A stretch of 64,000 bases of DNA from Streptomyces sp. SCSIO 30461 (GTDB taxonomy: Bacteria; Actinomycetota; Actinomycetes; Streptomycetales; Streptomycetaceae). The position numbers were made by a program, and so were the translations under genes. Shown one piece after another: positions 30,661-45,639 of this stretch. Position 1 is the first letter of the stretch; every line of letters begins with the position of its first letter. The notes beneath the pieces are model-generated. The model made no database searches. It was not told the origin of the DNA and worked only from the letters and a program-made list of their open reading frames with translations. The stretch spans positions 7,624,501 through 7,688,500 of the forward strand of contig NZ_CP146101.1 of assembly GCF_037023745.1 (NCBI RefSeq). Direction: 5' to 3'.

Positions 30661-30680
30661 TGAGACCACAACTGAGACCC
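30661..30680 (+). promoter_or_regulatory. Candidate integrase arm-type site, left end
   Basis: TGAGACCACAACTGAGACCC, two TGAGACC copies 12 bp apart, 117 bp inside attL. It matches 19 of 20 bases of a site in the same orientation at 45452-45471, 93 bp inside attR. Confidence 0.55.
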
Positions 30681-30686
30681 ACGCCG

Positions 30687-31625: not shown

Positions 31626-31675
31626 GGGCTACCTCTGTCGTGAATCGCCGCCCCTGGCGGGGCGGCGGCACGCGT

Positions 31676-32461
31676 CTACAGGAGGTCGCCGGGAATCCCG
31701 GCGTACCCCTCACGCAGTGCGGCGAGCACGGGGTGATCCTGGGGGAACTGCACATCGTCCAGCGCGCTCACGGAGCGCACGCCGATCGTCGTGTTCGTGG
31801 CGAACGCGGCGGCCATGTTGGGGACGTCGGCAAGCTGGACGGGGGCCGTGACCTGCTTGGGAGCGTCAAGGCTCTGGAGGAGGAGCATCGTCGTACCGGG
31901 CAGCACGGGGGCGTCCGGCCAAATGACCGTCCCGCCCTGGTCGACGAAACCGAGATTCCACGTGCCGCCCTCGGAGATACGGCCGTCCGGTTCGACAAAC
32001 ACCGCGTCGTCGAACCCGGCGAGTTGTGCGTCACGCCGAATGCGGAGCTGCGAGTGAAGGCCGATGTGCTTCACAGCCGCGCTGTCGCGGGTGAAGGTGA
32101 AGGACTTGGCGGTGAGCGGCGGCGGAGACAAGGCGCCGGCCGGTCGCAAGTTCACCAGAACGTGAGGGTCTTTCGCGTCACTCGGACGCCCCATGTCAAT
32201 CGCCGGGTCATAGATCGTGACGCGGATGCCCGCGACACGGGTGACACCCTCAACTGCCTTACGGATGTAGTCCAGCGTCCGGCCACGGTCCAACTCGACA
32301 CCGAAGACGATTCGGCAGTCCCGCACCAAACGATCCAGGTGGAGCGACAGGCCGCGGATCGTGCCGTCCTCCATGCGCATGGACGTGAAGTGCCCATAGT
32401 TGGTGAGGGCGAGAGCTTGGAGTTCGTCCAGGGTGACGGGCTTTCCGTTCAGTTCAGCCAT
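31676..32461 (-). CDS. Class IV aminotransferase-fold PLP enzyme
   Basis: PLP enzyme of fold type IV, 261 aa, related to branched-chain/D-amino-acid aminotransferases and aminodeoxychorismate lyase. The Schiff-base Lys lies in AAVKHIGLHSQLRIRRDAQL-like sequence, the conserved Glu-x-x-x-x-Asn in ISEGGTWNLGFV, and the N-terminal core reads GLSLHLDRLVRDC. The substrate cannot be predicted. ATG at 32461 is chosen from the match of MAELNG to compact family starts; the ribosome site is weak. It is AICE cargo located between the HTH/FGE gene and the GntR gene on the minus strand, probably one transcription unit. Confidence 0.85.
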   Translation of the reverse strand: MAELNGKPVTLDELQALALTNYGHFTSMRMEDGTIRGLSLHLDRLVRDCRIVFGVELDRGRTLDYIRKAVEGVTRVAGIRVTIYDPAIDMGRPSDAKDPHVLVNLRPAGALSPPPLTAKSFTFTRDSAAVKHIGLHSQLRIRRDAQLAGFDDAVFVEPDGRISEGGTWNLGFVDQGGTVIWPDAPVLPGTTMLLLQSLDAPKQVTAPVQLADVPNMAAAFATNTTIGVRSVSALDDVQFPQDHPVLAALREGYAGIPGDLL

Positions 32462-32613
32462 GCGGCCAGTCTCGCAGTCACCGAGGCCCGCCAACACCCC
32501 GCCACGCAACCAAAGTTCGGATTAGTTCGGTGCAGGGGCAGCGGGAGTACGTACTCGCAGAGCTCCCGCCGGAACACGCTTAGGGCATGGCGACGAACAC
32601 ACCGCGAGAGACG

Positions 32614-32997
32614 CTAGGCGCCGGACTCCCCCTTGGGGGAGCCCACGACGGACTCAAGCTGCTTGACGCGCTCGACAAGGCCGGAAAGTTCGGCCGAGAC
32701 GCGCGCGACCTCGGCTTGCAGCTCGGTCAAGCGCCGCGCTGCCTCGCGGGGCCCCTGCTCTCCGGGGGCAGGGTCGCGGACGTAGGTGCCGCTCCCCGAC
32801 ACGCCTTCGACCAACCCCTCTTCCTGGAGTTGCGCGTAGGCGTTCTGCACGGTCATCAGGGCCACACCAAGCTTCTTGGCGTAGGCCCGAGCGCCAGGGA
32901 GGCGGTCCCCTGGGCCGAACGTCCCTGCGGCGATCTCGTCTCTGACCCTGGATGCGATTTCGCGGGCGTTGGGCTTCCTCTTCGGCTGTGAGTCCAC
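32614..32997 (-). CDS. GntR-family repressor with C-terminal coiled coil
   Basis: A 127-aa regulator. The GntR winged helix (residues about 8-75) shows IASRVRDEIAAGTFGPGDRL, KKLGVALMTVQNAYAQLQEE and the wing GVSGSGTYV. The remaining 45 residues are a coiled coil (LTELQAEVARVSAELSGLVE) without a ligand domain, like KorSA-type repressors of Streptomyces plasmids and AICEs that keep transfer and replication genes off. GTG at 32997. The three ACCTAGGT palindromes in the divergent upstream region are its likely operators, controlling itself and the transfer operon. Confidence 0.88.
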   Translation of the reverse strand: MDSQPKRKPNAREIASRVRDEIAAGTFGPGDRLPGARAYAKKLGVALMTVQNAYAQLQEEGLVEGVSGSGTYVRDPAPGEQGPREAARRLTELQAEVARVSAELSGLVERVKQLESVVGSPKGESGA

Positions 32998-33012
32998 CCC
33001 GAAAGCGTACTT

Positions 33013-33106
33013 GACCTAGGTCGTTTGCAATCAGGTCGCGAGAGCACTTGACGACCCAAAGCGACCTAGGTAGCTTTCTCGACAACGACAAGCGACCTAG
33101 GTCGCT
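33013..33106. promoter_or_regulatory. Three phased ACCTAGGT palindromes: GntR operator region
   Basis: GACCTAGGTC (33013-33022), GCGACCTAGGTAGC (33061-33074) and the perfect 16-mer AGCGACCTAGGTCGCT (33091-33106). Centres are 50 and 31 bp apart, close to five and three helical turns, so bound dimers would line up on one DNA face. They lie 16-110 bp upstream of the GntR start and on the other side precede the transfer operon. Confidence 0.85.
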
Positions 33107-33530
33107 CCAGCAAAGGTCTTTTGACCTGCACAACAACTCGACAGCGTGATCCACCGCAGATACGACGGCCGCGACGACTCCGGCTGAGGCGAGTGGAGAC
33201 CAGCCGACCGAGAAACGGCCCGTGTCACAACCGGGCCCACACCCCTGACCGGGAACGCCATCGGCTCTAAGAACCGCGCGGCACACCTTGAAACTGCGAC
33301 GACATCCGGGATTTCGGAACTCTCCGGGTCGAGCAGCGTCGTGCGAAACAGGAGATCCGAACCTGTACCAGCGCTCACGGTGCCCGACATCCCACCGCCG
33401 TTCCGGCAGACCGGTGTCGGGTCGCCGTGGTCGCTCGTAGCCCACGACCGACCCACCCAACGGCGCGCGGCCCCGGTGTCCTACCACCGGGACCGCTTCG
33501 AGCCGTCCACCTGCTAGGGAGACACGACTC
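33107..33530 (+). other. Long leader of the transfer operon with a hairpin
   Basis: No gene is apparent in these 424 bp. A hairpin CCCGGTG (33472-33478) with CACCGGG (33485-33491), 6-nt loop, lies 39 bp before the first start codon and could attenuate transcription. AGGGAG (33515-33520) serves the first gene. Confidence 0.5.
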
Positions 33531-33788
33531 ATGAAGCACATCGTTGCTGTTCAGGCGGTTGTTACCGCCGAGCGGATCGACTGCGAGCCCACGGCCGCGG
33601 AGCTGGATGCGATCGAGCGGGAGATGCCGCTGATCGTGGCGGAGGTCGAGTTGTTGGACGCGTACATCGTCACCCTGGACCGCGTCCCGTCCGAGCTGGA
33701 CGCCCGGCGGGTCCGTCGTGCCCGGCGCCGGGTGCTGGCCGCCCGCGCGGCGCTGGCCAACCGCGGCGTTTGCGGGGAGGCGGCGTGA
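33531..33788 (+). CDS. DUF6284 family small protein
   Basis: An 85-aa protein of the DUF6284 type often seen at the start of streptomycete AICE operons; function unknown. It has an acidic N-terminal half (AAELDAIEREMPLIVAEVEL) and a very basic helical C-terminal half (ELDARRVRRARRRVLAARAA), so it could bind DNA or a protein partner. No membrane segment. ATG at 33531 has AGGGAG upstream. Its stop overlaps the next gene's GTG (GTGA). Confidence 0.8.
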   Translation: MKHIVAVQAVVTAERIDCEPTAAELDAIEREMPLIVAEVELLDAYIVTLDRVPSELDARRVRRARRRVLAARAALANRGVCGEAA

Positions 33789-34120
33789 GCGCGCAGATCC
33801 TCGCGGACCTGTCGGCGCCTCTGGTGGCGCTGCGGCTGCTCTCCATGGAGTTCGGGCATCTGCCCGCGCCCACGGTGGCGGTGTCGCCGATCTACCCGGA
33901 TCTGCTGGAGCTGTCGTTCCACTGCGGTGTCGCCGACTTCGAGGTGTGGCGCGAGGCCTTGTCGATCGATCCGGGCGATGTTGTTCACCGCGTTCACCGT
34001 GACGGGACGACCGGAGCTCTGAACGTTCACGGGAACTTCGGCGGGGCGCGGGTGCGGCTCGTCGGCTACACCACCCTCGCGGTCGCGGACGGCACTTTGG
34101 CGGGGGTGGGGGCGTCGTGA
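33785..34120 (+). CDS. AICE-associated hypothetical protein, 111 aa
   Basis: No family recognised. A small soluble alpha/beta protein (LADLSAPLVALRLLSMEFGH, LLELSFHCGVADFEVWREAL, VHGNFGGARVRLVGYTTLAV) that reads like a compact single-domain fold; no Cys cluster, signal or membrane segment. GTG at 33785 overlaps the previous stop as GTGA with GGGGAGG just upstream. The stop overlaps the next start, so it is translationally coupled in the transfer operon. Its codons include GTTCAC repeats that also occur downstream. Confidence 0.75.
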   Translation: MSAQILADLSAPLVALRLLSMEFGHLPAPTVAVSPIYPDLLELSFHCGVADFEVWREALSIDPGDVVHRVHRDGTTGALNVHGNFGGARVRLVGYTTLAVADGTLAGVGAS

Positions 34121-35136
34121 TGAACAGTGTTCAGATCCGTTCAGCGGAACGTGCGCTGTCGGTGGGGACGTGGACGATCGTGGCGGGGGCGATGCTCTAC
34201 TCGATCCTCACCGTGACTCCGCTGGCGGCCCGGCACACTCCGGACGAGTGGGCGTGGACGGCTCCGATCCTGCCGCTGGTGGTGGATGCGGCGGTGGTCA
34301 TCGTGGTCAAGCTCGATGACGTCCTTGCTCGACTGGGCGGGCACGGCGGGCGGTGGCCGGTCGTGCTGCGGTGGATGACCGGGCTCATGACGTGGGCGCT
34401 GAACGTGGCCGACTCCGCACTGAAAAAGGACCTGGTGGGAGTGGCGGTTCACTCGGTCGCGCCACTGCTGCTGATCGTCACCGCTGAGACCGGACTCGCC
34501 TACCGCCGCGCCATCGCCGCCGCCCTGGTCGCGCTGGATGCCAAGCAGCAGGCGGAGCGGGAGCGGCGGGAGCAGGCGGCCCGAGACCGTGCCGAGCGGG
34601 CCCGTGCCGAGGCGCGGGAGGAGCGGGAGCACACGGCGATGCTGGCGCGTGAACAGCGTGAACACGAAGCCGCGCTCGTCCGTGAACAGGCTGAGCGTGA
34701 GGATGCCCGGCGCCGCGAGGAGACCGCCCGTGCGGACGAGGTGGCCCGGGTGGAGCGGGAGGCTCGTGAACGCCGTGAACACGAGCGTGAACAGCAGCAG
34801 CAGGAGCGTGAACGCCTGGAACACGCTGCTGAACAGCGGCGTGAGGCGGAGCGGCTGGAGCGTGAGGCGCAGGCGCGCCGGCAGGAGCAGGAGCGGGCGG
34901 AGCGTGAACGCCGTGAACGCGCCGCGCTGCTGTCCGGTGGTCCGGTGAACGAGAAGCTCGCCGAAGGCCGCGCCCGCCAGGTCGTGGGAGCGGCGTTCGG
35001 CGAGGGTCTGCCCGTGCGGACGGCTGCTGAGCTGTGTGGCTGGTCGGTGGGCTGGGTCTCCACCCGCTACCAGGAACTGCGCGATAACCACGCCACGACG
35101 GCCGGTGTGCCGGTGCTGGAAGGAGTCCAGTCGTGA
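34120..35136 (+). CDS. DUF2637 / SpdB-like membrane protein with coiled coil and C-terminal HTH-like segment
   Basis: A 338-aa protein of the DUF2637 group, linked to intramycelial plasmid spread (Spd). Residues about 15-125 hold four hydrophobic segments (WTIVAGAMLYSILTVTPLAA, PILPLVVDAAVVIVVKL). Residues about 140-275 are a continuous Arg/Glu/Gln coiled coil. The end carries an HTH-like AAELCGWSVGWVSTRYQEL that may contact DNA. ATG at 34120 forms TGATG with the previous stop; GTG at 34117 is possible. Unusually, Arg-Glu pairs in the coil are repeatedly written CGTGAA, producing ten GTGAAC hexamers in 302 bp. Confidence 0.85.
   Translation: MNSVQIRSAERALSVGTWTIVAGAMLYSILTVTPLAARHTPDEWAWTAPILPLVVDAAVVIVVKLDDVLARLGGHGGRWPVVLRWMTGLMTWALNVADSALKKDLVGVAVHSVAPLLLIVTAETGLAYRRAIAAALVALDAKQQAERERREQAARDRAERARAEAREEREHTAMLAREQREHEAALVREQAEREDARRREETARADEVARVEREARERREHEREQQQQERERLEHAAEQRREAERLEREAQARRQEQERAERERRERAALLSGGPVNEKLAEGRARQVVGAAFGEGLPVRTAAELCGWSVGWVSTRYQELRDNHATTAGVPVLEGVQS
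34649..34950 (+). repeat. Ten GTGAAC hexamers inside the DUF2637 gene
   Basis: GTGAAC starts at 34649, 34658, 34682, 34766, 34775, 34787, 34808, 34904, 34913 and 34945. Three times two copies are exactly 9 bp apart (GTGAACNNNGTGAAC). A reverse-oriented pair with the same 9-bp spacing occurs at 33983 and 33992, with another single GTTCAC at 34025. Confidence 0.8.
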
Positions 35137-35369
35137 AGCTCTCCCCGAACACCACCCCGGTCGAGCCTGCCGGGCTGCTGATCCGGCTGCACAACCAGGT
35201 CGGTGCGGCGATCGATGTCACCGGCGATCAGCGTGGCCAGACCCGCTGGGACTGCCACGGCTGCGGTGAACACTCCGAGCGTCCTGTACGGGACTGGTTG
35301 TGGAGTATCCGCACCACAGCGAACGACCACGCCAGCCGGTGCCGGGCCGCCTACCACCAGCTGACCTGA
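35133..35369 (+). CDS. Small AICE protein with Cys/His cluster, 78 aa
   Basis: No established family. A 78-aa protein with a possible zinc site formed by CHGCGEH and a later C-x-x-x-x-H (ASRCRAAYH). The N-terminal LLIRLHNQVGAAIDVTGDQR reads as a helix and turn. Start GTG at 35133 overlaps the preceding stop by 4 bp and the stop overlaps the next ATG (TGATG), so it is tightly coupled in the operon. Probably a DNA- or protein-binding accessory factor of transfer, inferred only from context. Confidence 0.75.
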   Translation: MKLSPNTTPVEPAGLLIRLHNQVGAAIDVTGDQRGQTRWDCHGCGEHSERPVRDWLWSIRTTANDHASRCRAAYHQLT

Positions 35370-35707
35370 TGGCCAGCCTGCCGGTCTATCGCTGGCGGCT
35401 CGCCCCGGACGGCTACGCCACCCGCCGCCAACTCCGCGCCCTCGGACTACGCCCGGGTGGCCAAGGCGTCGCCGCACAGCTCGAACGTCCCCGGCGGCGC
35501 CGGGGCCCGCTGGTCGCCTACCTCTACCGCGTCGACCGTGCCCTGCCCGTGCGGCCGATGACCGCGGCGAAGTGGGCGGCACTCGGCAAGGCGAACGCCG
35601 CCCAGCAGATCTGCCCGAACTGCCGCCTGGACGTCGGCTACCGCATCCCGCTCTCGCACGGCATGTGCGGAACCTGCATCCACCTTGAGGAACAGTGCGC
35701 TGCCTGA
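35369..35707 (+). CDS. RRQ-motif zinc-ribbon-like AICE protein, 112 aa
   Basis: Resembles the 'RRQRL motif-containing zinc-binding protein' type found in streptomycete AICEs. The motif region is YATRRQLRALGLRPGG and there are two C-x-x-C knuckles, CPNCRLDVGY and CGTC, that could hold one Zn ion. Basic overall, probably nucleic-acid-binding. ATG at 35369 overlaps the previous stop (TGATG). About 80 bp then separate it from the next gene, which has its own ribosome site. Confidence 0.78.
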   Translation: MASLPVYRWRLAPDGYATRRQLRALGLRPGGQGVAAQLERPRRRRGPLVAYLYRVDRALPVRPMTAAKWAALGKANAAQQICPNCRLDVGYRIPLSHGMCGTCIHLEEQCAA

Positions 35708-35785
35708 ACATCTGCAGGGCCCGACCACACGCCTCCACAGCACTGGTCGGGCCCCTCTATTACTCCCGAAGGGAGTGCCCTCAGC

Positions 35786-37384
35786 ATGACCGAAGTCAGC
35801 ACAGAACCGGTAGCCGCCCCGGCGGCCCCGACCCCGCCACCCGAACCGCCCACGAAGACGCCGCCCGAATCGGGCGTGGAGCACACGCCCGGGGGTTGGC
35901 CGGTCGCGCCGCTGGCCCTGTCGGGTGCGAACGCGACCGTCTCCACGATCGCCGCGGCCGGTCTAACCGGCGGGCCGATCGCCGCGGCGGTCGCCGCCAC
36001 CGGCATGGTCGTGTTCGGCTCCCTCGCCTCTTACCGCAGTCGCAACCCGCGTCCGAGGCAGGCCGCGCGCCGGGCCGCCGCGCGTACCGCGGCCCGCCAG
36101 CACGCCGCACGCCACCGCTCCGCCGGACTCAGCACGGCTGGGCGGAAGACCGGTTCAGCCGGTGCTCGTACCGCTGGCGGACCGGGCAAGGTGTCCGGTC
36201 AGAAGCGGCACGGACCGGGCTCCGGTTCGGGGCGCGGCGGGGCTGGTCAGGGCCGCTCCGGGGCGGGCAAGCACCGCGCTCCGGTGTCCCTGAATAAGCC
36301 CGCCGGGCTCAAGAGCGGCGGTCTCGGTGGTGCGGCGGGTGTGCTGTCCAAGGCGGGGCAGGTCAAGGCACTGCGTAAGGCGCAGAAGAAGGCCGGGGGC
36401 TCCCGTGCGCAGAAGCGGGAGCAGACGTCCGCGGCCCGGCGCGTCATAGCTGATGCTCGCCGCAACACCCCGAAGCCCGGCGCGAACAAGCCCGGTGCCG
36501 GCAAGGGGCGGGGTCGGTCGGCTGGTGTGGCGGGCCGGATGCTCGGGGGCGCGGGGCGCAAATCGCGTGCGGTGAAGCAGGCGGCCATTGCCAAGCAGCG
36601 AGCGCGCCGAGATGGGGCCACCGCGCGGAAGGTAGCCGACGGGCGTTCGAGCGTGCGGAAGGCGCCTGCCCGACAGGCCGCGCGGAAGGCGCTGCGCTGT
36701 TCCGCTGCCCGTTTCCACGGGCGCCGCGCTTTGGCCGCGCTGCTTGCGCTGCCGCTCGGTCTCCTCGGGTTCCTGGCGAGCCCGTTGGGCCGGAAGTTGG
36801 GCTTGGCCTGGCTGGTCCACCCCGGCCGGCGCCTGTTCCGGCGGCTGACCGGCGCGGCCCGCGAGGAGCGTGCCGAGCGCGATACGGCGATCCGCGAGGA
36901 ACAGGCCGCCGCAGAGGACGCGGCAGAGCAGGAGGCCGCCAAGGACGTCACGGACGGGCTGGGGGACCGGGTGGAGCGCCCGGCCGGACCCGTCCCGAAC
37001 CACACCGATCACACGTCGACCAGTAGTGAAGGAGAGCACGTGTCCGGGTTCCAGTTCGAAGAGCACGCCGCCGAGATGGAGCAGGCCGCCCAGTCCTACG
37101 ACCCCGAGGACGCCATGGAGATCCTGACCATGGTCGAGGGGCTCCCGGCCGCGCTCACGTCGGTGGCGAACGTGATGAAGACCCTCGCCGAGCGCGCCGA
37201 CTCCGAGTTCCCGCTGGAGAAGGAGGTCGCGGACGGCTTCAACGACATCTTCGGCGCCCTGATGTCCGCGGTCGCGGTCGCGGAGGACATGGGGCCGCTG
37301 TTCCGCCAGGCCCATGAGCAGGACATCGCCCGTCACGAGGACCCCCGCAACGGCCCCGAGGCCGAGAAGGGCTGGAACGTCTGA
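35786..37384 (+). CDS. Large basic AICE protein, histone-H1-like middle, unknown function
   Basis: A 532-aa protein with no firm family. The Pro-rich N-terminus is followed by a hydrophobic stretch (STIAAAGLTGGPIAAAVAAT). A very long Lys/Arg/Ala/Gly region (about 85-310) of histone H1 type follows, then a second hydrophobic segment (LAALLALPLGLLGFLASPLG), and an acidic helical C-terminal domain (about 415-532) that looks like the conserved functional part. It sits directly before the TraB-like gene (1 bp gap), so it may bind DNA at the membrane during transfer. ATG at 35786 has GAAGGGAG about 13 nt upstream. The lower-complexity middle makes similarity searches unreliable. Confidence 0.75.
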   Translation: MTEVSTEPVAAPAAPTPPPEPPTKTPPESGVEHTPGGWPVAPLALSGANATVSTIAAAGLTGGPIAAAVAATGMVVFGSLASYRSRNPRPRQAARRAAARTAARQHAARHRSAGLSTAGRKTGSAGARTAGGPGKVSGQKRHGPGSGSGRGGAGQGRSGAGKHRAPVSLNKPAGLKSGGLGGAAGVLSKAGQVKALRKAQKKAGGSRAQKREQTSAARRVIADARRNTPKPGANKPGAGKGRGRSAGVAGRMLGGAGRKSRAVKQAAIAKQRARRDGATARKVADGRSSVRKAPARQAARKALRCSAARFHGRRALAALLALPLGLLGFLASPLGRKLGLAWLVHPGRRLFRRLTGAAREERAERDTAIREEQAAAEDAAEQEAAKDVTDGLGDRVERPAGPVPNHTDHTSTSSEGEHVSGFQFEEHAAEMEQAAQSYDPEDAMEILTMVEGLPAALTSVANVMKTLAERADSEFPLEKEVADGFNDIFGALMSAVAVAEDMGPLFRQAHEQDIARHEDPRNGPEAEKGWNV

Positions 37385-37385
37385 C

Positions 37386-39500
37386 ATGACTGCCACCACT
37401 GCCGCAAAGAAGAGGAAGCAGGCGGACAGTGGCCCGGTGCTGGACTGGAGCGCTGGTCACGGACCCGTGACCGGCGCTCTGTCCGCGACCACCGGAGCCC
37501 TGGCCATCGCCACCACCGGCGCCGCCACCGGCATGCCCCCCTTGTGGGCCATGGCGGTCGGCGCGGCTGGCGCCCTCGGCCATACCGTGGCCGGGCTGAA
37601 GGTCCGCAACGCGGGCCGCACCCTCGCCTTCAAGGCCGCATCCTGGCTGGTCGGCGCAGGGTGGACCACATGGGCCATGACCACCGGCCCCCTGTCCTGG
37701 GCCGCGCTCGGTTCGCTGGCCACGATCGGCGTCGGCATGGGTGCCGGCGCCCGCTCCGTCGCCCTCTACGAAGAGGCCCGCGAGGAAGAGGCACTGGCCG
37801 CCGAGCGGCGCCAGATCGCCCAAGAGATGAGCGCGGAGCGGCGCCAGATCGCCGCGGAGTGGGTGGAGCGGATCCGCCGGATCTGCACCATCACCGTGCG
37901 CGTGCTGGCGGTGGAGATGTGGGAGACCGGCAACGGCTACTCCCTCGACCTCGAACCGCAGGGCGGCACCACCTACGACCGCATCGCCCAGCACTCCGCG
38001 GCCCTGTCCGCCGACGCGAAGCTGCCGCACGGCTGCACCGCCGCGGTCGGCCCCGGCGCCCACCAGGGCCGGGCCATCGTGGACGTCACCACCCGCAACG
38101 TCCTCGCCGAGGCGCGCACCTACCCGGAGGATTACACGCCGCTGTCGATCCTGACCGGCATCCCCTGGGGATTCCGCACCAACGGCGATGACGTGCTCGC
38201 CTACCTGCGCGAGCAGTGCGCGCTGGTCGTCGGGCCGACCGGATCGGGCAAGACGAACATGCTCCACACGATCCTCGCCGGACTCGCCCGCGCCGAAGAC
38301 GTCCTCACCTGGGTGATCGACCTGAACGCCGGATCGGCCGGTCTGCCCTGGGTACGCCCCGCCCTCGCAGGCGAGCTGAAACAAGGCGACGGCAATCCGG
38401 TGCGGCCCGGCGTGGACTGGCTCGCCGGTACGTACGAGGAGGCGCTGAAGCTGCTCGATGCGGCGATCGCCATCGGCCTGGCCCGCAAGCGCGGCTACCA
38501 GGAGCTGATGGCCAAGCACGACACCGACCTGTTGCCGGTGAGCGCGAAGATTCCGCAGATCATGCTGGTCATCGACGAGGGCGCGGAGATCCTGGTGTCC
38601 ACCGATCGGCGGATGAAGGAACTCGCCAAGCGCATCTTGGAGTTCATCCGCATGCACCGCTCCATGGGCGGACGCACGATCATCACCGCCCTCGGAGCGA
38701 CCGGCAGCGTGCTGGGCAATTTGATGATCCGCCGCGAGGCAAAGGTGAGGGTCGCCCTGACCGGTGGCGAGACCGAGGGCATGGACCTGTCGAAGATGTT
38801 CCCCGGCCGCCGTGGGCTGCGGGTGGATCAGGCGCCGTTCAAGGGCGCCGGGTTCATGGGCACCCCCGAATCCCCCGGGGCGCTGTTCAAGGCCTGGCGG
38901 ATCAAGCCGTCCCAGATCCGCGACATCACCATCGCCACCAGCGACCGGCGTCCGCGTCTGGACGCGGTGTCGGTGAACGCGGCCGGTGCGGACTACGCGC
39001 GGCGGTGGGACGCGGAGCGGACCACGTGGATGCGCGACCTCACCCCGGAAGCGACCGGCACCGAGCAGTCCGCGCCCGGTGCCGGGGGAGGGTTGAACCT
39101 GTCCGCCCACCGCACCGACCGCGCCGGGAAGGCGGGTGGGGACGATGATCTGTTGCGCCGGTTCCGTGAGGAGATCGACGCCCAGTTCGCCACCGCCCCC
39201 GACCCGGACGCCTGGCCCGCGTCCGCGGGGTTGAACCTGTCGGCGCTGCGCAAAGAGCCAGAGCAGGACAGCCCTGCGCAGCGGGCCGCGCTCGCCGTGC
39301 TCCTCGCGGCCGGGCCGGACGGCACCGGGGCATCCGCGATCGCCCGCGCGCTCACGGACGAGTTCGGCACGACTCGGCAGACGGTCGTGGGCTGGCTCAA
39401 GACGTGGGCCGACGACGGCACCGCCGTGCGGATCGGACAGGGCACCAAAGCCCGCTACGTCCACCGCGACCACACCCCCGAACCGCCCCCGGGCGAGTAG
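37386..39500 (+). CDS. traB: TraB-like FtsK/SpoIIIE conjugative DNA translocase
   Basis: The key transfer protein of actinobacterial conjugation, 704 aa. A hexameric FtsK-like pump that moves double-stranded DNA between mycelia. N-terminal membrane segments lie around residues 30-120, then a short coiled coil (AAERRQIAQEMSAERRQIA). Walker A is GPTGSGKT at 283-290 and Walker B VIDEGAEIL (Asp397, Glu398). The C-terminal winged helix (about 635-695; IARALTDEFGTTRQTVVGWL) is expected to read 8-bp-type repeats in clt, comparable to FtsK gamma. ATG at 37386 starts 1 bp after the preceding stop. The GACAAG array directly after its stop is the obvious candidate target. Confidence 0.92.
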   Translation: MTATTAAKKRKQADSGPVLDWSAGHGPVTGALSATTGALAIATTGAATGMPPLWAMAVGAAGALGHTVAGLKVRNAGRTLAFKAASWLVGAGWTTWAMTTGPLSWAALGSLATIGVGMGAGARSVALYEEAREEEALAAERRQIAQEMSAERRQIAAEWVERIRRICTITVRVLAVEMWETGNGYSLDLEPQGGTTYDRIAQHSAALSADAKLPHGCTAAVGPGAHQGRAIVDVTTRNVLAEARTYPEDYTPLSILTGIPWGFRTNGDDVLAYLREQCALVVGPTGSGKTNMLHTILAGLARAEDVLTWVIDLNAGSAGLPWVRPALAGELKQGDGNPVRPGVDWLAGTYEEALKLLDAAIAIGLARKRGYQELMAKHDTDLLPVSAKIPQIMLVIDEGAEILVSTDRRMKELAKRILEFIRMHRSMGGRTIITALGATGSVLGNLMIRREAKVRVALTGGETEGMDLSKMFPGRRGLRVDQAPFKGAGFMGTPESPGALFKAWRIKPSQIRDITIATSDRRPRLDAVSVNAAGADYARRWDAERTTWMRDLTPEATGTEQSAPGAGGGLNLSAHRTDRAGKAGGDDDLLRRFREEIDAQFATAPDPDAWPASAGLNLSALRKEPEQDSPAQRAALAVLLAAGPDGTGASAIARALTDEFGTTRQTVVGWLKTWADDGTAVRIGQGTKARYVHRDHTPEPPPGE

Positions 39501-39503
39501 CCC

Positions 39504-39651
39504 TTGTCGCTTGTCACCCACCCCCACACGAACACCCGCCCTCGGGGTGCTGTGGGGGTCGGAAACGGCTTGTGACCTGCGAGGCGACAAGCGACAAGAC
39601 AAGCAAGGCGACAAGACAAGCGACAAGCCGCACGACAAGTCAGACGACAAG
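39504..39651 (+). promoter_or_regulatory. Candidate clt: 12-bp-periodic GACAAG array
   Basis: GACAAG starts at 39586, 39598, 39610, 39622, 39634 and 39646, exactly 12 bp apart, with extra copies at 39593 and 39615. Two inverted copies (CTTGTC) sit at 39504 and 39511 directly after the traB stop. The location downstream of traB matches known clt loci of Streptomyces plasmids. Confidence 0.75.
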
Positions 39652-39712
39652 CCATCGGCGGGCAGCACCCACTCCGGGAGCTGCCCGCCAATCGTTTCCG
39701 GGAGGCCCGCTC

Positions 39713-39904
39713 GTGATCGTCACCCTGTCCGCCGTCGCCCTCTTCGGGCTCATCACCTTCGTCCTCATCCGCTCCCGCTACGTCGGCCCCGCCGCCGCGC
39801 TCGCGGTGTTCCTCTTCGGTTTCTTCACCGCCGACACCGGAGCCTCCACCGCCATCCGCTCCGCCATACAGGCCCTCATCAACGCCGCATCCAACATCAC
39901 CTAA
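39713..39904 (+). CDS. Small membrane protein (Spd-like), 63 aa
   Basis: A 63-residue protein with two hydrophobic segments (VTLSAVALFGLITFVLIRS; AAALAVFLFGFFTAD) and a short polar C-terminus. It is like the tiny spread proteins that accompany tra genes in Streptomyces plasmids, though no family motif identifies it. GTG at 39713 has GGGAGG 7 nt upstream. It lies between the repeat array and a larger Spd-like gene on the same strand. Confidence 0.75.
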   Translation: MIVTLSAVALFGLITFVLIRSRYVGPAAALAVFLFGFFTADTGASTAIRSAIQALINAASNIT

Positions 39905-39924
39905 CCCCGAAAGGAGGCACGGCC

Positions 39925-40428
39925 GTGAGCGAGACCGACACCCCGGCCGACTGGTGGCCGCGCATGAGCGACGCCGAGGCCAACGCCGAAGCCCGCCGCA
40001 TCATCAACGACATCTACCGCCCCACCCCGCCCCCGGCGCCCATCCCGACGTCCTACCGCGACACCACCGAGCCCCCGAGCGTCGGCGACATGCCGCCGGT
40101 CTGGCAGAACGACCACCGGATCGTGCCCGCATGGGCCGCCGGAACCGCCATCGCCTCCATCGGCATCGGCGCCGGCACCACCGGCATCGGCTGCGGCGTC
40201 TGGCTCGTGCTGAAGGGATTCGCCTCCATGAGCGTCACCGGCGTCGCCTGCATGGGCGTCCTCCTCTCCGGCATCGCCTTCGCGGCCTTGTCCATTGGTG
40301 CCGCGTTCGCCCGCGCCAAGCGCAGCGTCTCCAAGGCGGTCTACACCGGGCCGGTCACCAAGAACACCCACGTCACCACCCACACCCGAGGCACGTTCGC
40401 CCGCTCCCACACCCACCTGCACAACTGA
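39925..40428 (+). CDS. Membrane protein of the Spd type, 167 aa
   Basis: Predicted membrane protein. A Pro-rich cytosolic N-terminus (about 75 residues) precedes two hydrophobic segments (AGTAIASIGIGAGTTGIGCG; SVTGVACMGVLLSGIAFAAL). The C-terminus is rich in His/Thr (HVTTHTRGTFARSHTHLHN), a feature shared with SpdD-like spread proteins. GTG at 39925 has AAGGAGG 7 nt upstream. Placed between traB and replication genes as spd genes usually are. Molecular role unknown. Confidence 0.78.
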   Translation: MSETDTPADWWPRMSDAEANAEARRIINDIYRPTPPPAPIPTSYRDTTEPPSVGDMPPVWQNDHRIVPAWAAGTAIASIGIGAGTTGIGCGVWLVLKGFASMSVTGVACMGVLLSGIAFAALSIGAAFARAKRSVSKAVYTGPVTKNTHVTTHTRGTFARSHTHLHN

Positions 40429-40440
40429 CCAGGAGACAGC

Positions 40441-40956
40441 ATGACCACCGAGACCACCACGGTCGAACCCGCCCAGCTCACCCGCGAGGCGGCCGAAGCC
40501 ATCCGCGAGTTCAACCACCGCACCCTTCCCCGTTCTGGGGCTCCGGGATTGACGTACCCGGGGGAGGCGTACGACGCCATCGCGGCGCTGAAGGTCCTGG
40601 CCCAGCGGCTCCCGCAGGCCATCGAGCAGATCGGCACGGCGCTCGACGTCCTGAGCGCCCTCGGCCACCTGGGGTCTGCCGACGGCCAGGACCCGGCTCG
40701 GCACGTCGCCGCCACCCAGGACTTCCTGATCACCGGCATGGAACAGGCCCAGGGTCTCGCCCAGTGCCTGGATCTCGCGCACAGCGCCGTCAGCCCGCTC
40801 ACCTACAGCGGCCCCGAGAACGGCCCGGAGGAGGAGCCGTGCGGTGAGGGCATGTGCCAGTGCTACTGCGTCGGCGCCGGACACCCCTGCGGCTGCGACT
40901 GCCCGCACGACGACGACTGCGACTGCGACTTCTGCGAGGCCCGCGACCAGTACTAA
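40441..40956 (+). CDS. AICE protein with a ten-cysteine metallothionein-like tail, 171 aa
   Basis: Unrecognised family. Residues 1-125 are helical and acidic (LTREAAEAIREFNHRTLPRS, LGSADGQDPARHVAATQDFL). Residues about 134-166 hold ten Cys, many as C-x-C (CQCYC, CGCDC, CDCDFC), with His and Asp between them, ending ARDQY. A metal cluster or zinc structure is likely. ATG at 40441 with GGAGA upstream. A strong hairpin just after the gene separates it from the replication genes. Confidence 0.75.
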   Translation: MTTETTTVEPAQLTREAAEAIREFNHRTLPRSGAPGLTYPGEAYDAIAALKVLAQRLPQAIEQIGTALDVLSALGHLGSADGQDPARHVAATQDFLITGMEQAQGLAQCLDLAHSAVSPLTYSGPENGPEEEPCGEGMCQCYCVGAGHPCGCDCPHDDDCDCDFCEARDQY

Positions 40957-40962
40957 CTACGC

Positions 40963-41004
40963 CAAGGGCGGCCCCCACTCCGCCAAGAACCGGGGCCGCC
41001 CTTG
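40963..41004 (+). terminator. Hairpin between transfer and replication genes
   Basis: Perfect 13-bp stem CAAGGGCGGCCCC (40963-40975) with GGGGCCGCCCTTG (40992-41004), 16-nt loop, 6 nt after a stop. Could terminate the transfer operon or tune expression of the replication genes. Confidence 0.7.
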
Positions 41005-41041
41005 CCAGCCAGAACCCACCAAGGAACTGGAGACATCCAGC

Positions 41042-41902
41042 ATGACCCAACAGCCCCCCTCACGGGGAGAACACCTGCGTACCGCATTGACCCTGGCAGC
41101 CTCCGGCGTGCCCGCCATGCCGCTACGAGAGGGGAAAGTCCCCTTCGGTAACTGCCGCCGCTGCGCGGACAACGCCTGCGGCGGTCGGCCGAACATGAAG
41201 ACCCCCGGGCCATGTGCCTGCCCCCGGCCGTGCCACGCATGGGCCGCCGCAACCACCGACCCTGACATCATCGGTTCCGGCCCGTGGCGCCGGGCCTGGC
41301 TCACCGCGAGCGCGGTCGCCTACCACCCAGGCGGCGCCGGGCTCACCGTCGTCGACCTCGACAACGCCGACGCCATCGCGTGGGCCCGCGAGCACTTGCC
41401 CCCCACGCAGACCGTGCCCACCACCCGCGGTCAGCACTGGCTCTACCAGGGCGCCATGCAGTCCGCCAACGGCGTGCGACCCGGCGTCGACATCAAGTCC
41501 ACAATGGCCTACGCCCGCTGGCTCGGACCCGGCACCGGCACCGGCACCACGACCACCCTGCCGGACGCCGTTCGCGCGCTGGCCGTGAAGGAGCGCCGCG
41601 CAGTCCGACCGGCAGCCGCCACTGTGCCCGCGCCAGCCGCCAGCGGTGAGTGCCGCCACCGCACGCCCGCCTTCCTGGAACGCGGCATCGCCATGGCCGA
41701 GCAGCGCATCAACGGGGCGTCCAGCGGCATCCACGCGGCCGTGTACGCCACGTTCCTGGCCGTGCTCTCCACGCACGGCCGGTGCGGCTGCCTCACCGAG
41801 GACCACACCGCGCGGCTGTTCGCCGCCGCGCAGGCCAAGGGCGAAACCCCGCGGCACTGCGCCGACGCGTGGAACAACGCCCGCACGAGGTTGGGACTGT
41901 AG
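41042..41902 (+). CDS. Bifunctional DNA primase/polymerase (Prim-Pol)
   Basis: Replication priming enzyme of the AEP/Prim-Pol family, 286 aa. A Cys-rich insertion early on (NCRRCADNACGG, PCACPRPCHAW) is typical of streptomycete AICE members and may bind Zn. The catalytic D-x-D is in LTVVDLDNADAIAW, and VPTTRGQHWLYQ matches the conserved His strand. A C-terminal domain (about 200-286) contains IHAAVYATFLAVLSTHGRCG. ATG at 41042 with GGAG about 10 nt upstream. Paired with the P-loop protein that starts 2 bp after its stop. This defines the SLP1-like Prim-Pol class of AICE rather than the RepSA class. Confidence 0.9.
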   Translation: MTQQPPSRGEHLRTALTLAASGVPAMPLREGKVPFGNCRRCADNACGGRPNMKTPGPCACPRPCHAWAAATTDPDIIGSGPWRRAWLTASAVAYHPGGAGLTVVDLDNADAIAWAREHLPPTQTVPTTRGQHWLYQGAMQSANGVRPGVDIKSTMAYARWLGPGTGTGTTTTLPDAVRALAVKERRAVRPAAATVPAPAASGECRHRTPAFLERGIAMAEQRINGASSGIHAAVYATFLAVLSTHGRCGCLTEDHTARLFAAAQAKGETPRHCADAWNNARTRLGL

Positions 41903-41904
41903 CC

Positions 41905-43380
41905 ATGTCCGAGGACGACAAGACCCCGGCCCGCGAAGTCATCGCCGACTACGCACAGGAGCGGTTCCGCTACTTCCGCACCGCCGACGGCACCGTCTAC
42001 GCGCAGAAGAACGGCCACCCCGTCGCCCGCCCCATCCGCTCCCAGGGAACCTCCGGGAGCCACCGCCAGGAACTCATGGTCGGCCTGTTCAAAGACGGGG
42101 TCGGCGTGTTCAACGGCACCGCCCTCAAGGAGGCGCTGGACTTGATCGAAGCACTCGCACTCAACGAGACCACCCAGAACGTACACATCCGCGTCGCCCC
42201 CGGCTTCGACGGCGCGACCTGGCTGGACCTGGGCCGCAACGACGGCCAGTCGGTACGCATCCACCCCACCGGATGGGACATCCGCGTCCCCGACCCGCAG
42301 GAAGTGTGCTGGCGGCGCACCCAGCTCACCGGCGAACTGCCCCTGCCGGAGAAGAACACCGACGGCAAGGGCATCGACCTGCTGTTCCACCTGTGCAACT
42401 TCGTCAACGCCGAAACCGAATGCCTCGCGATGGCCTGGCTGGTCGGCTGCCTGGAACCCTCCGTACCCGTACCCGCCCCCTTCCTCACCGGACCACAGGG
42501 CGCGGGAAAGTCGACCGCCGGCCGGATGCTCATCCGCATCATCGAGGGCATGAGCAGCGACCTTCGCCGCGCCCCCAAGGACGAGGAAAACCTGATCGCG
42601 GCCGTCGCCGCGGGATGGGTCACCGCGCTGGACAACCTCTCCCACATGACCCCGGACCTGTCCGACGCCATGTGCTGCATCGTCACAGGCGCCGAGTCCG
42701 TCAAACGGGCCCTGTTCACCGACGGCGACGTCTTCCGCGCCCGCTACCGCCGCCCGCTCCTGCTGACCGGTATCGACGTGGGCGTCATCCGGCCCGACCT
42801 CGCCGAACGCCTCCTGCCCCTGCGCCTGGAACGGCCCAAGGTGCGGCGCACCGAAGCGGAGCTGTGGACGGAGTACGCGCAAGTCCTGCCCGTCGTACTC
42901 GGGTCGCTGCTGGACCTGACCGTCAAGGTCCGCGCCGCTTCGGCGGAGACGCCGACGGATCTACGCATGGCGGACTTCGCCCACCTGTGCGCGCAACTCG
43001 ACACCGCGATGGGTCTCGGGGCCCTGCCCGCCTACCGCGCCGGACTCGACGACCTCAACGACGACGTGATCGAGGGCGACCTCCTCGCGCAGACCGTGCT
43101 GCAGTACGCGGCCGACATGCAACCCGGGGAGCAACAACGGATGACCTCCGCCGAGTGGCTGCACCTCCTCACCCGGCTCTACAGCGGCGAGGACTGCCGC
43201 CCGCTCCCCAAGGGCTGGCCGACTACCGGAAAGGTCCTCTCCGACCGCCTCAAGCGCCTTCAACCCACCCTCGCCGCCCGCGGACTGAACGTCGACTGGG
43301 GACGCACCCGCGAGGCCCGCTACATCGAACTCACCGAACCCGCCCCGGCACCCGGCCCGCAACAGGGAGCCGCGTTCTGA
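41905..43380 (+). CDS. P-loop ATPase, probable replicative helicase/initiator partner of Prim-Pol
   Basis: A 491-aa ATP-binding protein. Walker A is GPQGAGKST from residue 196, and the acidic Walker B-like residue is in VTALDNLSH. The central AAA/SF3-like region includes KRALFTDGDVFRARYRRPLL and DLAERLLPLRLER. The C-terminal 120 residues (MTSAEWLHLLTRLYSGEDCR, LKRLQPTLAARGLNVDWGRT) look like a winged helix for origin binding. It starts 2 bp after the primase gene, so the two are co-translated. Predicted to unwind the iteron-rich region directly downstream. Confidence 0.82.
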   Translation: MSEDDKTPAREVIADYAQERFRYFRTADGTVYAQKNGHPVARPIRSQGTSGSHRQELMVGLFKDGVGVFNGTALKEALDLIEALALNETTQNVHIRVAPGFDGATWLDLGRNDGQSVRIHPTGWDIRVPDPQEVCWRRTQLTGELPLPEKNTDGKGIDLLFHLCNFVNAETECLAMAWLVGCLEPSVPVPAPFLTGPQGAGKSTAGRMLIRIIEGMSSDLRRAPKDEENLIAAVAAGWVTALDNLSHMTPDLSDAMCCIVTGAESVKRALFTDGDVFRARYRRPLLLTGIDVGVIRPDLAERLLPLRLERPKVRRTEAELWTEYAQVLPVVLGSLLDLTVKVRAASAETPTDLRMADFAHLCAQLDTAMGLGALPAYRAGLDDLNDDVIEGDLLAQTVLQYAADMQPGEQQRMTSAEWLHLLTRLYSGEDCRPLPKGWPTTGKVLSDRLKRLQPTLAARGLNVDWGRTREARYIELTEPAPAPGPQQGAAF

Positions 43381-43397
43381 CCGCAAGGTCACCGCAC

Positions 43398-43445
43398 AAC
43401 AGCAAGAGGAGCACCCGGGGGGCGACGCGTGCTCCTCTTGCTGTT
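43398..43445 (+). terminator. Terminator after replication genes
   Basis: Perfect 17-bp stem, arms 43398-43414 and 43429-43445 (AACAGCAAGAGGAGCAC and complement), 14-nt loop, 18 nt after the stop codon of the ATPase gene. Confidence 0.85.
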
Positions 43446-43556
43446 CGGTGCGCAGCACCCTGCCGAAGAACGTGCCGCGTAGCGGCTCCTTCTTCACGCC
43501 TGAGCCGCGCACAACAACAGACACCACCCCCTCTCTTTTCCTAAGTAGAGGAAAGC

Positions 43557-43774
43557 TGCGTCACCTGCGTCACAGCCGACGGAAAACGGCCCCTGAACTG
43601 CCAGAACAGGCGTGACGCAGAACCCGGATGTCTGCGTCATCGTGCGTCACCTGCGTCACGCCCTCGTGTCACAGACGACGAAGCCGTGACGCACCGGTGA
43701 CGCACCCCACCCACCCCACGTCACGCAAACACACAGGTCAAAGGCCCAAATGACGCACGTGACGCCGTGACGCA
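43557..43774. repeat. Iteron cluster TGCGTCAC/GTGACGCA, candidate replication origin
   Basis: Eight perfect copies: TGCGTCAC at 43557, 43566, 43643, 43652, and its complement GTGACGCA at 43612, 43686, 43697, 43767. One-mismatch copies lie at 43633, 43750 and 43759. Neighbours are mostly 8-11 bp apart. The left half mainly points one way and the right half the other. The cluster sits between the replication genes and excisionase in gene-free DNA (43381-43841). Confidence 0.8.
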
Positions 43775-43841
43775 GAAATCCGAACCTCGGACACACGCGG
43801 ACTCCGGTAGGCCCTAGGAAGCCCTCACACAGGAGGACTTG

Positions 43842-44045
43842 ATGAGCACCGCCATTGCTGCCCCCGTCGACCGACTGCTGTACAAGCCGGAAGAGGCTGC
43901 CGAAGCTCTCGCCATCGGCCGCTCCACCGTCTACGAGCTGATGGCCGAAGGTGCCCTGCAGTACATCAAGTTGGGTCGCACACGCCGAATTCGACGTGCT
44001 GACCTCGAAGCCTACGTAGCGAACCTCAACCCTCTGCCCAACTGA
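43842..44045 (+). CDS. xis: Excisionase-type helix-turn-helix protein
   Basis: A 67-aa MerR-superfamily excisionase-like DNA-binding protein. YKPEEAAEALAIGRSTVYEL forms the HTH and MAEGALQYIKLGRTRRIRRA the wing. It would bend DNA at the attachment sites to favour excision with the integrase encoded next door. ATG at 43842 has AGGAGG 5 nt upstream. A strong terminator separates it from int, so the two are probably regulated apart despite their short distance. Confidence 0.9.
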   Translation: MSTAIAAPVDRLLYKPEEAAEALAIGRSTVYELMAEGALQYIKLGRTRRIRRADLEAYVANLNPLPN

Positions 44046-44061
44046 CCCGAGCAGGCCCTGA

Positions 44062-44090
44062 GGCGCCCCGAGCATCCCGCTCGGGGCGCC
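44062..44090 (+). terminator. Intrinsic terminator between xis and int
   Basis: GGCGCCCCGAGC (44062-44073) with GCTCGGGGCGCC (44079-44090), 5-nt loop, followed by TTT. It lies 19 bp before the int start codon, so int needs read-through or its own signal within the hairpin. Confidence 0.9.
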
Positions 44091-44108
44091 TTTCGCATGG
44101 AGGAGCAC

Positions 44109-45518
44109 ATGAGTCCCCGCAAGCCCAACAACGAGTCATCCATCTACTTCGGCGCCGACGGCTGGTGGCACGGCCGCGTCACGATGGGCGTGAAGAACGA
44201 TGGCAGTCCCGACCGACGCCACCGTCGTGCCAAGTCCGAGCCCGAAATCAAGTGCAAGGTCAAGGAGTTGGAACGGCAGCGTGATGAAGGTCGCGCGACC
44301 AAGGCGGGCCGCGCGCCGACCGTCGCGAAGTGGATGGAGACCTACCTCACCGACGTCGCGAGCCTGAAGCTCAAGCCGCGCTCGCTCGATGACTACTGGT
44401 CGAAGACGCGCAACGACATCATCCCAGGCATCGGACAACACCGGATCGACAAGTTGCAGCCGGAGCATTTGGAGCGGATGTACCGCGCCATGCTGGACGC
44501 CGGCCACGCCCCCTCGCACGTCGTGAAGGTGCACCGCATCCTGTCCCGCGCGCTGAAGATTGCGCACCGCCGCCGTATGGTCAGTGAGAACGTCGCCACG
44601 CTCGTAGACCCGCCGAGCGTCGACGAGACCGAGGCGAACCCGTTCACCCAGGAAGAGGCCAAAGCCTTCCTCGAAGCCGCCGCGAAGCGCCCCACCTTCA
44701 TGCGCTGGATCGTCGGTGTCGGCATGGGTTTCCGACAGGGCGAGACGCTCGGTCTGCGCTGGCCGTACGTCGACCTGAAAGCGGAGCTGTTCCGCCCCGA
44801 GTGGCAACTACAGCGCCTCACGTGGCGGCACGGCTGCAACGCTCCGCACGCGTGCGGGGCACGTCTCCACCGCTTCGATCCGTGCCCGCCAAACTGCACC
44901 GCGCACAAGGGCTATAAGCGTGGCTGCCCGAAGCCTTGCGCCAAGAACTGCACACGGCATGCGAGCGCCTGCCCGGAGCGCAAAGGCGGCGGTCTCGCTT
45001 TCACCCGCCCCAAGACCAAGAAGAGCCGGAACGCTGTCCCGATCCCGCCCGTCTTCATCCCGCTTCTGGCCGACCACAAGGCCCGGCAGGAGGCGATGCG
45101 GACCGCGGCCGGAGTGCTGTGGGAGGAACACCAGGTCGTGTTCTCGCGGCCGGACGGGCGCCCGATCGACCCCCGGCAGGACTACGAGGAGTTCAAGGAG
45201 CTGCTCGCCGAAGCCGGTATTGACGACCGCCGCCTGTACGACGGAAGCCGCCACACAGCGGGGACGATCCTGAACGAACTGGGGGTCGACATGACCACCA
45301 TCATGGAGATTCTGCGGCACACCCAGATCAGCCAGACCCGCCGCTACGTGAAAGGGCGATCACACCTGTCGAAGGACGCGATGCGGCGGATGGGCGAGTT
45401 CTTCGCCCCCACTCCCCCGGGCCCCGCCCCGGATCCGGTTTCCGGCCCCACTGAGACCAGAACTGAGACCCCCAGCACCCGCGCGGCTCGCTCCCAACGC
45501 CGTCGCCGCATCCGCTGA
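44109..45518 (+). CDS. int: Tyrosine recombinase (integrase) with Cys-rich insertion
   Basis: Site-specific integrase of 469 aa. N-terminal arm-binding and SAM-like core-binding regions (about 1-190) are followed by the catalytic domain with Arg209 (FRQGETLGLRW), Arg381-His382 (DGSRHTAGT), His404 (LRHTQISQ) and nucleophile Tyr413 (RRYVKG). The residue three before Arg381 is Asp instead of the usual His. Between the first Arg and the rest, residues about 240-300 form a Cys/His-rich insert with about ten Cys, possibly a zinc-binding lobe. A basic, Thr/Glu/Pro-rich tail ends the protein. ATG at 44109 has GGAGG upstream; ATG at 44097 is less likely. It reads towards attR and the tRNA. Confidence 0.94.
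   Translation: MSPRKPNNESSIYFGADGWWHGRVTMGVKNDGSPDRRHRRAKSEPEIKCKVKELERQRDEGRATKAGRAPTVAKWMETYLTDVASLKLKPRSLDDYWSKTRNDIIPGIGQHRIDKLQPEHLERMYRAMLDAGHAPSHVVKVHRILSRALKIAHRRRMVSENVATLVDPPSVDETEANPFTQEEAKAFLEAAAKRPTFMRWIVGVGMGFRQGETLGLRWPYVDLKAELFRPEWQLQRLTWRHGCNAPHACGARLHRFDPCPPNCTAHKGYKRGCPKPCAKNCTRHASACPERKGGGLAFTRPKTKKSRNAVPIPPVFIPLLADHKARQEAMRTAAGVLWEEHQVVFSRPDGRPIDPRQDYEEFKELLAEAGIDDRRLYDGSRHTAGTILNELGVDMTTIMEILRHTQISQTRRYVKGRSHLSKDAMRRMGEFFAPTPPGPAPDPVSGPTETRTETPSTRAARSQRRRRIR
45452..45471 (+). promoter_or_regulatory. Candidate integrase arm-type site, right end
   Basis: TGAGACCAGAACTGAGACCC, 19/20 identical to 30661-30680 and in the same orientation. It lies inside the 3' end of int (codons for T-E-T-R-T-E-T-P), 93 bp before the attR core. 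Confidence 0.55.
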
Positions 45519-45524
45519 ACGAGA

Positions 45525-45560
45525 AAACCCCAGGTCAGAGCACGTTCTGACCTGGGGTTT
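45525..45560. terminator. Bidirectional terminator between int and tRNA-Thr
   Basis: Perfect 15-bp stem (45525-45539 with 45546-45560, AAACCCCAGGTCAGA and complement), 6-nt loop. On the tRNA side it begins 3 bp after the CCA end. It shares 13 stem bases with the hairpin at 30461-30495. Confidence 0.88.
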
Positions 45561-45564
45561 GGTG

Positions 45565-45608
45565 GAGCCGCCTTCGGGATTCGAACCCGAGACCTACGCA
45601 TTACGAGT
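45565..45608 (-). other. attR: 3' half of the intact tRNA-Thr
   Basis: Same 44 bp as attL, here continuous with the tRNA 5' half at 45609-45639. The functional tRNA therefore uses the element's own copy of the 3' half. Confidence 0.93.
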
Positions 45609-45639
45609 GCGTTGCTCTGGCCATCTGAGCTAAGGCGGC
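45566..45639 (-). tRNA. tRNA-Thr (anticodon CGT)
   Basis: A 74-nt cloverleaf: acceptor GCCGCCT pairs with AGGCGGC, D-arm GCTC...GAGC, anticodon stem ACGCA/TGCGT around loop CTCGTAA (anticodon CGT), T-arm TCGGG-TTCGAAT-CCCGA, discriminator T. CCA is encoded next (45565-45563). It reads ACG codons and is the integration target of the AICE. Confidence 0.97.

Follow-up and report, generated by a model that had tools for sequence, protein, structure and literature searches.

The 64,000-nucleotide stretch of Streptomyces sp. SCSIO 30461 analyzed here (the window) contains an AICE integrated at a tRNA-Thr gene, spanning positions 30500-45608. Its ends are marked by a 44-bp attachment repeat, the longest common stretch, whose left copy (30500-30543) is identical to the right copy (45565-45608), the latter lying within the tRNA-Thr gene itself (45563-45639, minus strand). 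The genes by which an AICE is recognized, int, xis, replication genes and traB, are all found between these repeats. traB (37386-39500, plus strand) encodes an FtsK/SpoIIIE-type DNA translocase of 704 aa (PF01580, 26.8 bits against a cut-off of 24), and is followed on the same strand by a gene for a small hydrophobic protein of 63 aa (39713-39904), which has no Pfam match and whose hydropathy suggests a probable Spd-like spread protein. Further along the plus strand come two replication genes, the first with a Prim-Pol domain (41042-41902; PF09250, 35.1 bits, cut-off 22.8) and the second presumably helicase-like (41905-43380), with no Pfam or NCBIfam match. The excisionase gene xis (43842-44045, TIGR01764) and a tyrosine integrase gene (44097-45518, PF00589), both on the plus strand, complete this end of the element, and a repeat array of TGACGCA/TGCGTCA lies between the helicase-like gene and xis (43556-43775). 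On the minus strand, a GntR-like regulator (32614-32997, PF00392) is encoded beside three GACCTAGGT sites at 33013, 33063 and 33094 (span 33013-33103), probable operators next to this divergent gene. Outside the element, seven perfect 34-bp tandem copies occupy 16683-16919.

The array of interest begins directly after the traB stop codon (TAG, 39498-39500). Its direct block (39586-39651, plus strand) holds eight copies of GACAAG, starting at 39586, 39593, 39598, 39610, 39615, 39622, 39634 and 39646. Six of them (39586, 39598, 39610, 39622, 39634 and 39646) keep a single exact 12-bp phase, and the two off-phase copies start 7 and 29 bp after the first one, 5 and 7 bp adding up to the same 12-bp period, which Tandem Repeats Finder also reports (39585-39654). 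An inverted block of two CTTGTC copies 7 bp apart, at 39503 and 39510 (39503-39515, minus strand), lies about 76 bp upstream of the direct block, and the locus is bipartite, with the inverted block ahead of the direct one. All ten copies fall between the traB stop and the next likely gene at 39713. The original prediction had described just this arrangement, eight GACAAG with six at exact 12-bp intervals and two inverted copies after the traB stop, and the description holds: 5000 dinucleotide-preserving shuffles of the 212-bp gap, counted on both strands, gave a mean of 0.18 copies and never more than three, against the ten observed, and the commonest 6-mer of whatever kind reached at most five in 2000 shuffles. 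The gap has two further features. An TGACCTGC box occupies 39573-39580 (plus strand), between the inverted and direct blocks, and a hairpin-like inverted repeat with 22-nt arms matching at 82% (39649-39697) overlaps the last three bases of the array.

The array likely lies in gene-free DNA, although mechanically called open reading frames cross it. A coding array was considered: its main frame coincides with that of traB in 42 of 86 relatives, so the traB-relative frame is not kept, but this frame is shut within 150 nt past the array in 35 of the 86 and open in 51, so frame alone does not exclude coding. Arrays of the related SRQ/DRK family include TAG stops. An RNA element was rejected, with no Rfam match at gathering score within 39000-40500.

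The last 110 residues of TraB (39168-39497, plus strand) form a winged helix in the structure model. Helix 3, RQTVVGWLKTWADD (codons 39375-39416, plus strand), is the presumed recognition helix, given its place in the model and the way in which helix class tracks array class, and residue-base comparison picks out a wing threonine (codon 39444-39446, plus strand) that accompanies GACAA as Thr and GACAG as Ser or Asn. With PF01580 above its cut-off and a winged helix in the model, this TraB has what is expected of the partner of such an array. As for N-terminal membrane segments, judged by hydropathy, no 19-residue Kyte-Doolittle window exceeds 1.4, and the region has Ala/Gly-rich stretches. A search by sequence gave no credible solved relative, and fold comparison returned generic winged helices; FtsK gamma was absent among the best 50 rows, which proves nothing.

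The FtsK gamma domain is a winged helix that ends an FtsK-type motor and reads short polar KOPS sites. KOPS are spread over the chromosome and steer its segregation, whereas here there is one cluster per element. For the plasmid pSVH1, Vogelmann et al. in 2011 reportedly described a clt whose 8-bp TRS is bound by helix 3 of TraB, the unit of which we take to be GACCCGGA. This unit has no copy in 39501-39712 and one per strand elsewhere in the element, in keeping with the expectation that the repeat would differ from the pSVH1 TRS. Three papers (PMC3583192, PMC4170104, PMC12857230) also give pSVH1 an 8-bp TRS bound by TraB helix 3; the likeness would be that in both systems an FtsK-like TraB reads short repeats with its C-terminal winged helix. 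The clt of pWTY27, according to PMC3583192, consists of 16 bp of the traA end plus 159 bp; TraA binds its repeats and transfer needs the clt. The pWTY27 locus is similar in that it also lies directly after the tra gene, measures about 160 bp and is built of short direct and inverted repeats. However, its repeats are TGACACC and CCCGCCC on a theta plasmid, here a GACAAG 12-bp lattice on an AICE, and TGACACC is absent from the array region. The pJV1 clt, as given in the same source (PMC3583192), has nine 9-bp repeats CCGCACA[C/G][C/G] with imperfect inverted repeats; multiple short direct repeats are common to both, but CCGCACA is absent from the array region. A 2022 account (PMC9513070) notes that not even the model AICE pSAM2 had a clt described for it, and poses pump sharing by co-resident AICEs as a question. 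Among the matches listed, titles and abstract openings yielded no open paper on a GACAAG array, on its AICE setting or on a helix-to-repeat code, and the 2011 pSVH1 paper may list further repeats. The kind of clt is already known; the repeat is unlike those published for pSVH1, pWTY27 and pJV1, belongs to an AICE group in which none seems to have been described, and covaries with the TraB helix unusually strongly.

Relatives were collected at several depths. Of 7991 candidates scored against TraB, 1092 qualified as homologues with an E value of at most 0.001. The search of the genus, in a sample of 392 genomes, gave 91 places down to E 3e-21, from which the window and 80 of the 90 others were taken; the ten left aside were eight partial matches and two places that repeat others in the same genome, and weaker matches were chromosomal FtsK-type proteins. 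Together with 78 named loci, these 80 loci around TraB homologues and the window make 159, reduced to 138 distinct by dropping 21 (16 identical, five at contig ends). Of these, 119 form the motor-tree set, and 14 of the 138 are unclassed, namely 12 distant FtsK-like proteins and two whose tails are unreadable in frame (L176 and L189). In a phylum-wide sample, winged-helix matches occurred in two of 396 genomes, both of the window's genus and one of them its own; in the family sample they occurred in 55 of 394 genomes and eight of 17 genera. Searching the family with the winged-helix piece gave 62 places, 49 of which were taken and later one more, besides G327, most others being already included. 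One of the 49 had no BLAST hit, 13 repeated earlier loci and 35 were new (24 GTGASA-type, four of the SRQ/DRK family and seven others without a recognized array, including L236). TraB-like FtsK translocases, at about 31-35% identity, are also encoded by the phages Keanu and Spocter (L190 and L192), two of nine matching Streptomyces phage records, with no clear matching array in the DNA that follows these two genes.

The helix pattern RQT[VI][VAS][GR]WL, to which the window belongs, is found in 86 of the 138 distinct loci. At least five GACAAG on either strand lie within 1 kb in 86 of these 86 loci, as against none of the 33 with other helix classes in the motor-tree set, the classes having been defined after some arrays had already been seen. 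Within 250 nt of the traB stop, at least five copies are found in 81 of the 86. In the remaining five (L059, L129, L137, L140 and L143) the direct block is kept but displaced, starting 245-406 nt away behind an insert. The inserts of L140 and L059, each about 300 bp long, resemble one another and apparently represent a small gene on the reverse strand; another insert is common to L129, L137 and L143. The direct blocks contain 5-11 copies, and 575 of 595 neighbor spacings are 5, 7 or 12 bp. The inverted block is kept as well: an exact inverted copy precedes the direct block by at most 140 nt in 79 of 86 loci, CTTGTC or CCTGTC does so in 85 of 86, and in 70 of the 84 loci measured the two blocks stand 72-76 bp apart. 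On a looser bipartite test 61 of 86 loci passed; in each of the eight failures listed, the loose pattern had caught a CCTGTC lying beyond the array. The 19 loci outside the tree set comprise 17 with 0-2 GACAAG, among them the 12 unclassed FtsK-like proteins (0-2 within 1 kb), and L176 and L189, with their unreadable traB ends, with ten each.

The loci added later behaved similarly. Thirteen of 14 new full-tail loci matching the pattern have the array, displaced in L258, and L263, which failed the stricter pattern under which 99 loci are counted, carries nine GACAAG. The exception is L226, which matches the pattern but has CGACAG repeats and a different wing residue. Five of six extra fragments (L273, L274, L275, L276 and L277) covered five of the eight partial-match places that had been left aside. 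Four of the six match the pattern, three of them (L273, L274 and L275) with 9-11 copies within 250 nt, and L277, a traB fragment, with only four within 1 kb; L276, with a disrupted traB end, has two within 1 kb, and L278 is unrelated. The array may decay once traB is broken, though L176 and L189 keep ten copies. The original prediction, which took the locus for a clt-like one whose specificity would be new and fitted to the C-terminal helix of this TraB, and which proposed looking for the array beside homologues with the same recognition helix, is supported, with 86 of 86 loci against none of 33, then 13 of 14 new ones, and with L226, L276 and L277 as the misses.

Nearly all relatives with other helices have different repeats at the same place. 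SRQ[AG]VR helices go mostly with TA[CG]TGGC (GGC after TA[CG]T in 103 of 142 sites), DRKTVR helices with TA[CG]TGGG (GGG in 59 of 68), REAVRK helices with TACTGCC (GCC in 21 of 23), and the NVKTVR helix of a single plasmid TraB with TACTCGG (CGG in eight of eight); 7 bp is the commonest spacing in the SRQ, DRK and REA arrays. The single SRHGVR locus is mixed (GGA four, GGT two and GGC one of seven). Later additions to this family gave GGC in five of nine sites in L237 (SRQ), GGG in nine of nine and nine of ten in L239 and L240 (DRK), and a new variant with GGT/GGA in L241 (SRPAIR). RPVIQRWL helices are found with TGACAG in three of three loci and the GTELG class with TGTGGGA in five of six, L101 having none. 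L099 (HRTTISGWL) carries GACAACAAG, and L236, whose helix VRTTISGWL is related to that of L099, has no repeat array after traB. By the looser bipartite test, an inverted block precedes the direct block in 16 of 17 SRQ, six of seven DRK, three of three REA, one of one SRH and three of three RPV loci. The TGACCTGC box at 39573-39580 is common to three TraB classes, with 54 of 86 RQTV, two of three RPVIQ and six of six GTELG loci, and is found in none of 28 loci of the SRQ/DRK/REA/SRH family, where a looser form occurs in seven of 28; it is perhaps a site for a host factor.

Single residues also track single bases. In the helix, the residue that follows RQ or RP is Thr where the repeat reads CGACA and Val where it reads TGACA. 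In the wing, the residue preceding Lys or Gln is Thr where the repeat reads GACAA, and Ser or Asn where it reads GACAG. Each rule holds in 41 of 41 rows of a tree for which 17 earlier rows had been chosen by hand and in which L259 covers only 20% of the columns. Independent contrasts at residue level agree in five of five and four of four cases, though the pairs are few (p 0.06 and 0.12). The wing rule explains L226 and is post hoc. L227 and L229 share the helix RQTINGWLKEW, with wing Asn and CGACAG in the one and wing Thr and GACAAG in the other; L228 (Val with wing Thr) is mixed, with six GACAAG and four GACAG. On these residue comparisons the wing, besides the recognition helix, tracks the repeat.

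Is the correspondence more than shared descent? A tree built by a quick method from 119 rows of the motor part alone (residues 1-605 of the window's TraB), with long branches, requires 20 changes of helix class. In ten of ten independent pairs, on the starred branches, the RQTV helix and the GACAAG array switch together (sign test p 0.002). When DRK is set against its family's two other helices, five of five pairs are concordant, too few for significance (p 0.06). By these covariation statistics the repeat fits the recognition helix of its partner TraB. Sixteen hand-picked locus pairs, 11 of unlike and five of like class, give a view of the breakpoints. In four of the 11 unlike pairs (L168/L142, L069/L080, L085/L086 and L071/L078) the stretch from winged helix to array alone is replaced, with 81-89% agreement upstream, 36-72% over winged helix and array, 73-92% next and divergence again beyond; in L071/L078 the last upstream bin stands at 62%. 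L168/L142 has 88-89% upstream, 36-60% over winged helix and array, and 91-92% over the next 230 nt. Among the like-class controls, agreement as far as 400 nt beyond traB remains 79-98% in L054/L142, L080/L083 and L067/L072; the window against L035 stands at 70-85%, and the window against L044 at 62-87% to the array end and 40-44% beyond. The remaining seven unlike pairs have a downstream flank that also differs or is interrupted, and a clean cassette swap is not universal. Winged helix and array thus switch together while motor, replication and downstream genes vary. Because the two are adjacent and one recombination event moves both, these contrasts show coupling, not contact.

Could the array serve something other than loading of TraB for transfer? 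Origin iterons are likewise short, evenly spaced direct repeats, and since the element replicates, the GACAAG copies might be bound by its Rep proteins. A control on 125 loci, among them the window, for which 7 kb or more of downstream sequence was at hand separates the two: TGACGCA, a different array, tracks the helicase (35 of 36 loci with it, none of 89 without), whereas 52 of 82 RQTV loci keep GACAAG with neither a homologue of this Rep helicase (above 80 bits, within 9 kb downstream) nor a TGACGCA cluster. Of these 82 loci, window counted, 33 have a homologue of the Prim-Pol gene. Two arrays in one element therefore follow two different proteins, and this double dissociation led to the rejection of replication iterons for GACAAG, which are very unlikely; the TGACGCA/TGCGTCA array at 43556-43775 is the probable set of origin iterons. 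Somewhat less far-fetched, yet still improbable, is an array that TraB binds for another purpose, either autoregulation of the downstream spread genes or stability. Its position between traB and the spread genes and the hairpin after it would suit such a role, and SpdA2 repeats of pIJ101 serve stability and not transfer, as stated in PMC4170104. However, PMC3583192 has the pWTY27 repeats beside the tra gene needed for transfer, and the array stays constant while downstream genes vary, the window's two spread-like genes having homologues in only 24 and 25 of 82 RQTV loci.

The adjacency raised above also allows for repeats with no partner at all, which track the winged helix merely by lying next to it, since swaps carry both together. 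Yet the unit and its spacing persist in a gap that otherwise diverges, the copies all change together, the five displaced arrays have survived the insertions, and the downstream breakpoint of four pairs lies close to the array end, which leaves such hitchhiking extremely unlikely. Nor is there much to recommend an operator of another regulator: the element does encode a DNA-binding one, the GntR-like protein (PF00392, 32614-32997), but its likely operators, the three GACCTAGGT sites, are unlike the array in sequence, and the array tracks TraB's own domain, so that this possibility is close to negligible. The reading we favor, and hold with high confidence from sequence comparison, is that the array is the clt of this AICE, bound by the C-terminal winged helix of TraB.

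A clt of this kind would act after excision and replication of the element, which would come first. The C-terminal winged helices of TraB subunits would then bind the GACAAG units and the inverted pair; the 12-bp lattice, between whose units further copies stand at 5 or 7 bp, would suit successive winged helices. In the accepted model, as PMC12857230 and PMC4170104 give it, TraB binds and forms a hexamer that pumps double-stranded DNA. By analogy, binding here may load a hexamer of TraB onto the element's double-stranded DNA, which it would pump into the recipient, the need for the locus in transfer being argued from pWTY27 and from that model. With helix 3 and the wing reading the repeat, each TraB would recognize its own element.

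A bolder proposal, for which we put the chances at about even, is that TraB carries a readable code split over helix 3 and the wing, and that winged helix and bipartite clt form a cassette swapped among AICEs to change their transfer identity. In this code, helix Thr would specify C and Val T before GACA, and wing Thr would specify A and Ser or Asn G at the fifth base; in the second winged-helix family RQ would read GGC, RK GGG, RE GCC and VK CGG. Were the code true, the TraB of an unstudied AICE would make it possible to predict its clt, and likewise which elements can share a pump. The DNA choice of TraB is known for few plasmids only, and the array provides a precise candidate clt for a large AICE group, whose relatives supply natural domain-swap pairs and base-level predictions.

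Across the whole 8.05-Mb genome, pairs of GACAAG 12 bp apart give 22 matches, against ten for a backwards control pattern. Ten of the 22 belong to the window element and to a second element at 279.3 kb, four lie at 1264.6 kb and eight are single; outside the two elements such pairs do not exceed the backwards control, which gives no sign of chromosomal clt-like arrays in this genome. The four come from a GACAAG run of mixed spacing at 1264593-1264646, perhaps a Lys/Asp-rich coding stretch. The second element (L002/L032, 279.3-281.6 kb) has the same GACAAG array and a TraB 95% identical to that of the window, and its 19-kb stretch holds no homologue of the window's Prim-Pol or helicase. The two elements possibly share one pump, and with two same-array elements in one genome, cross-use of TraB is directly testable.
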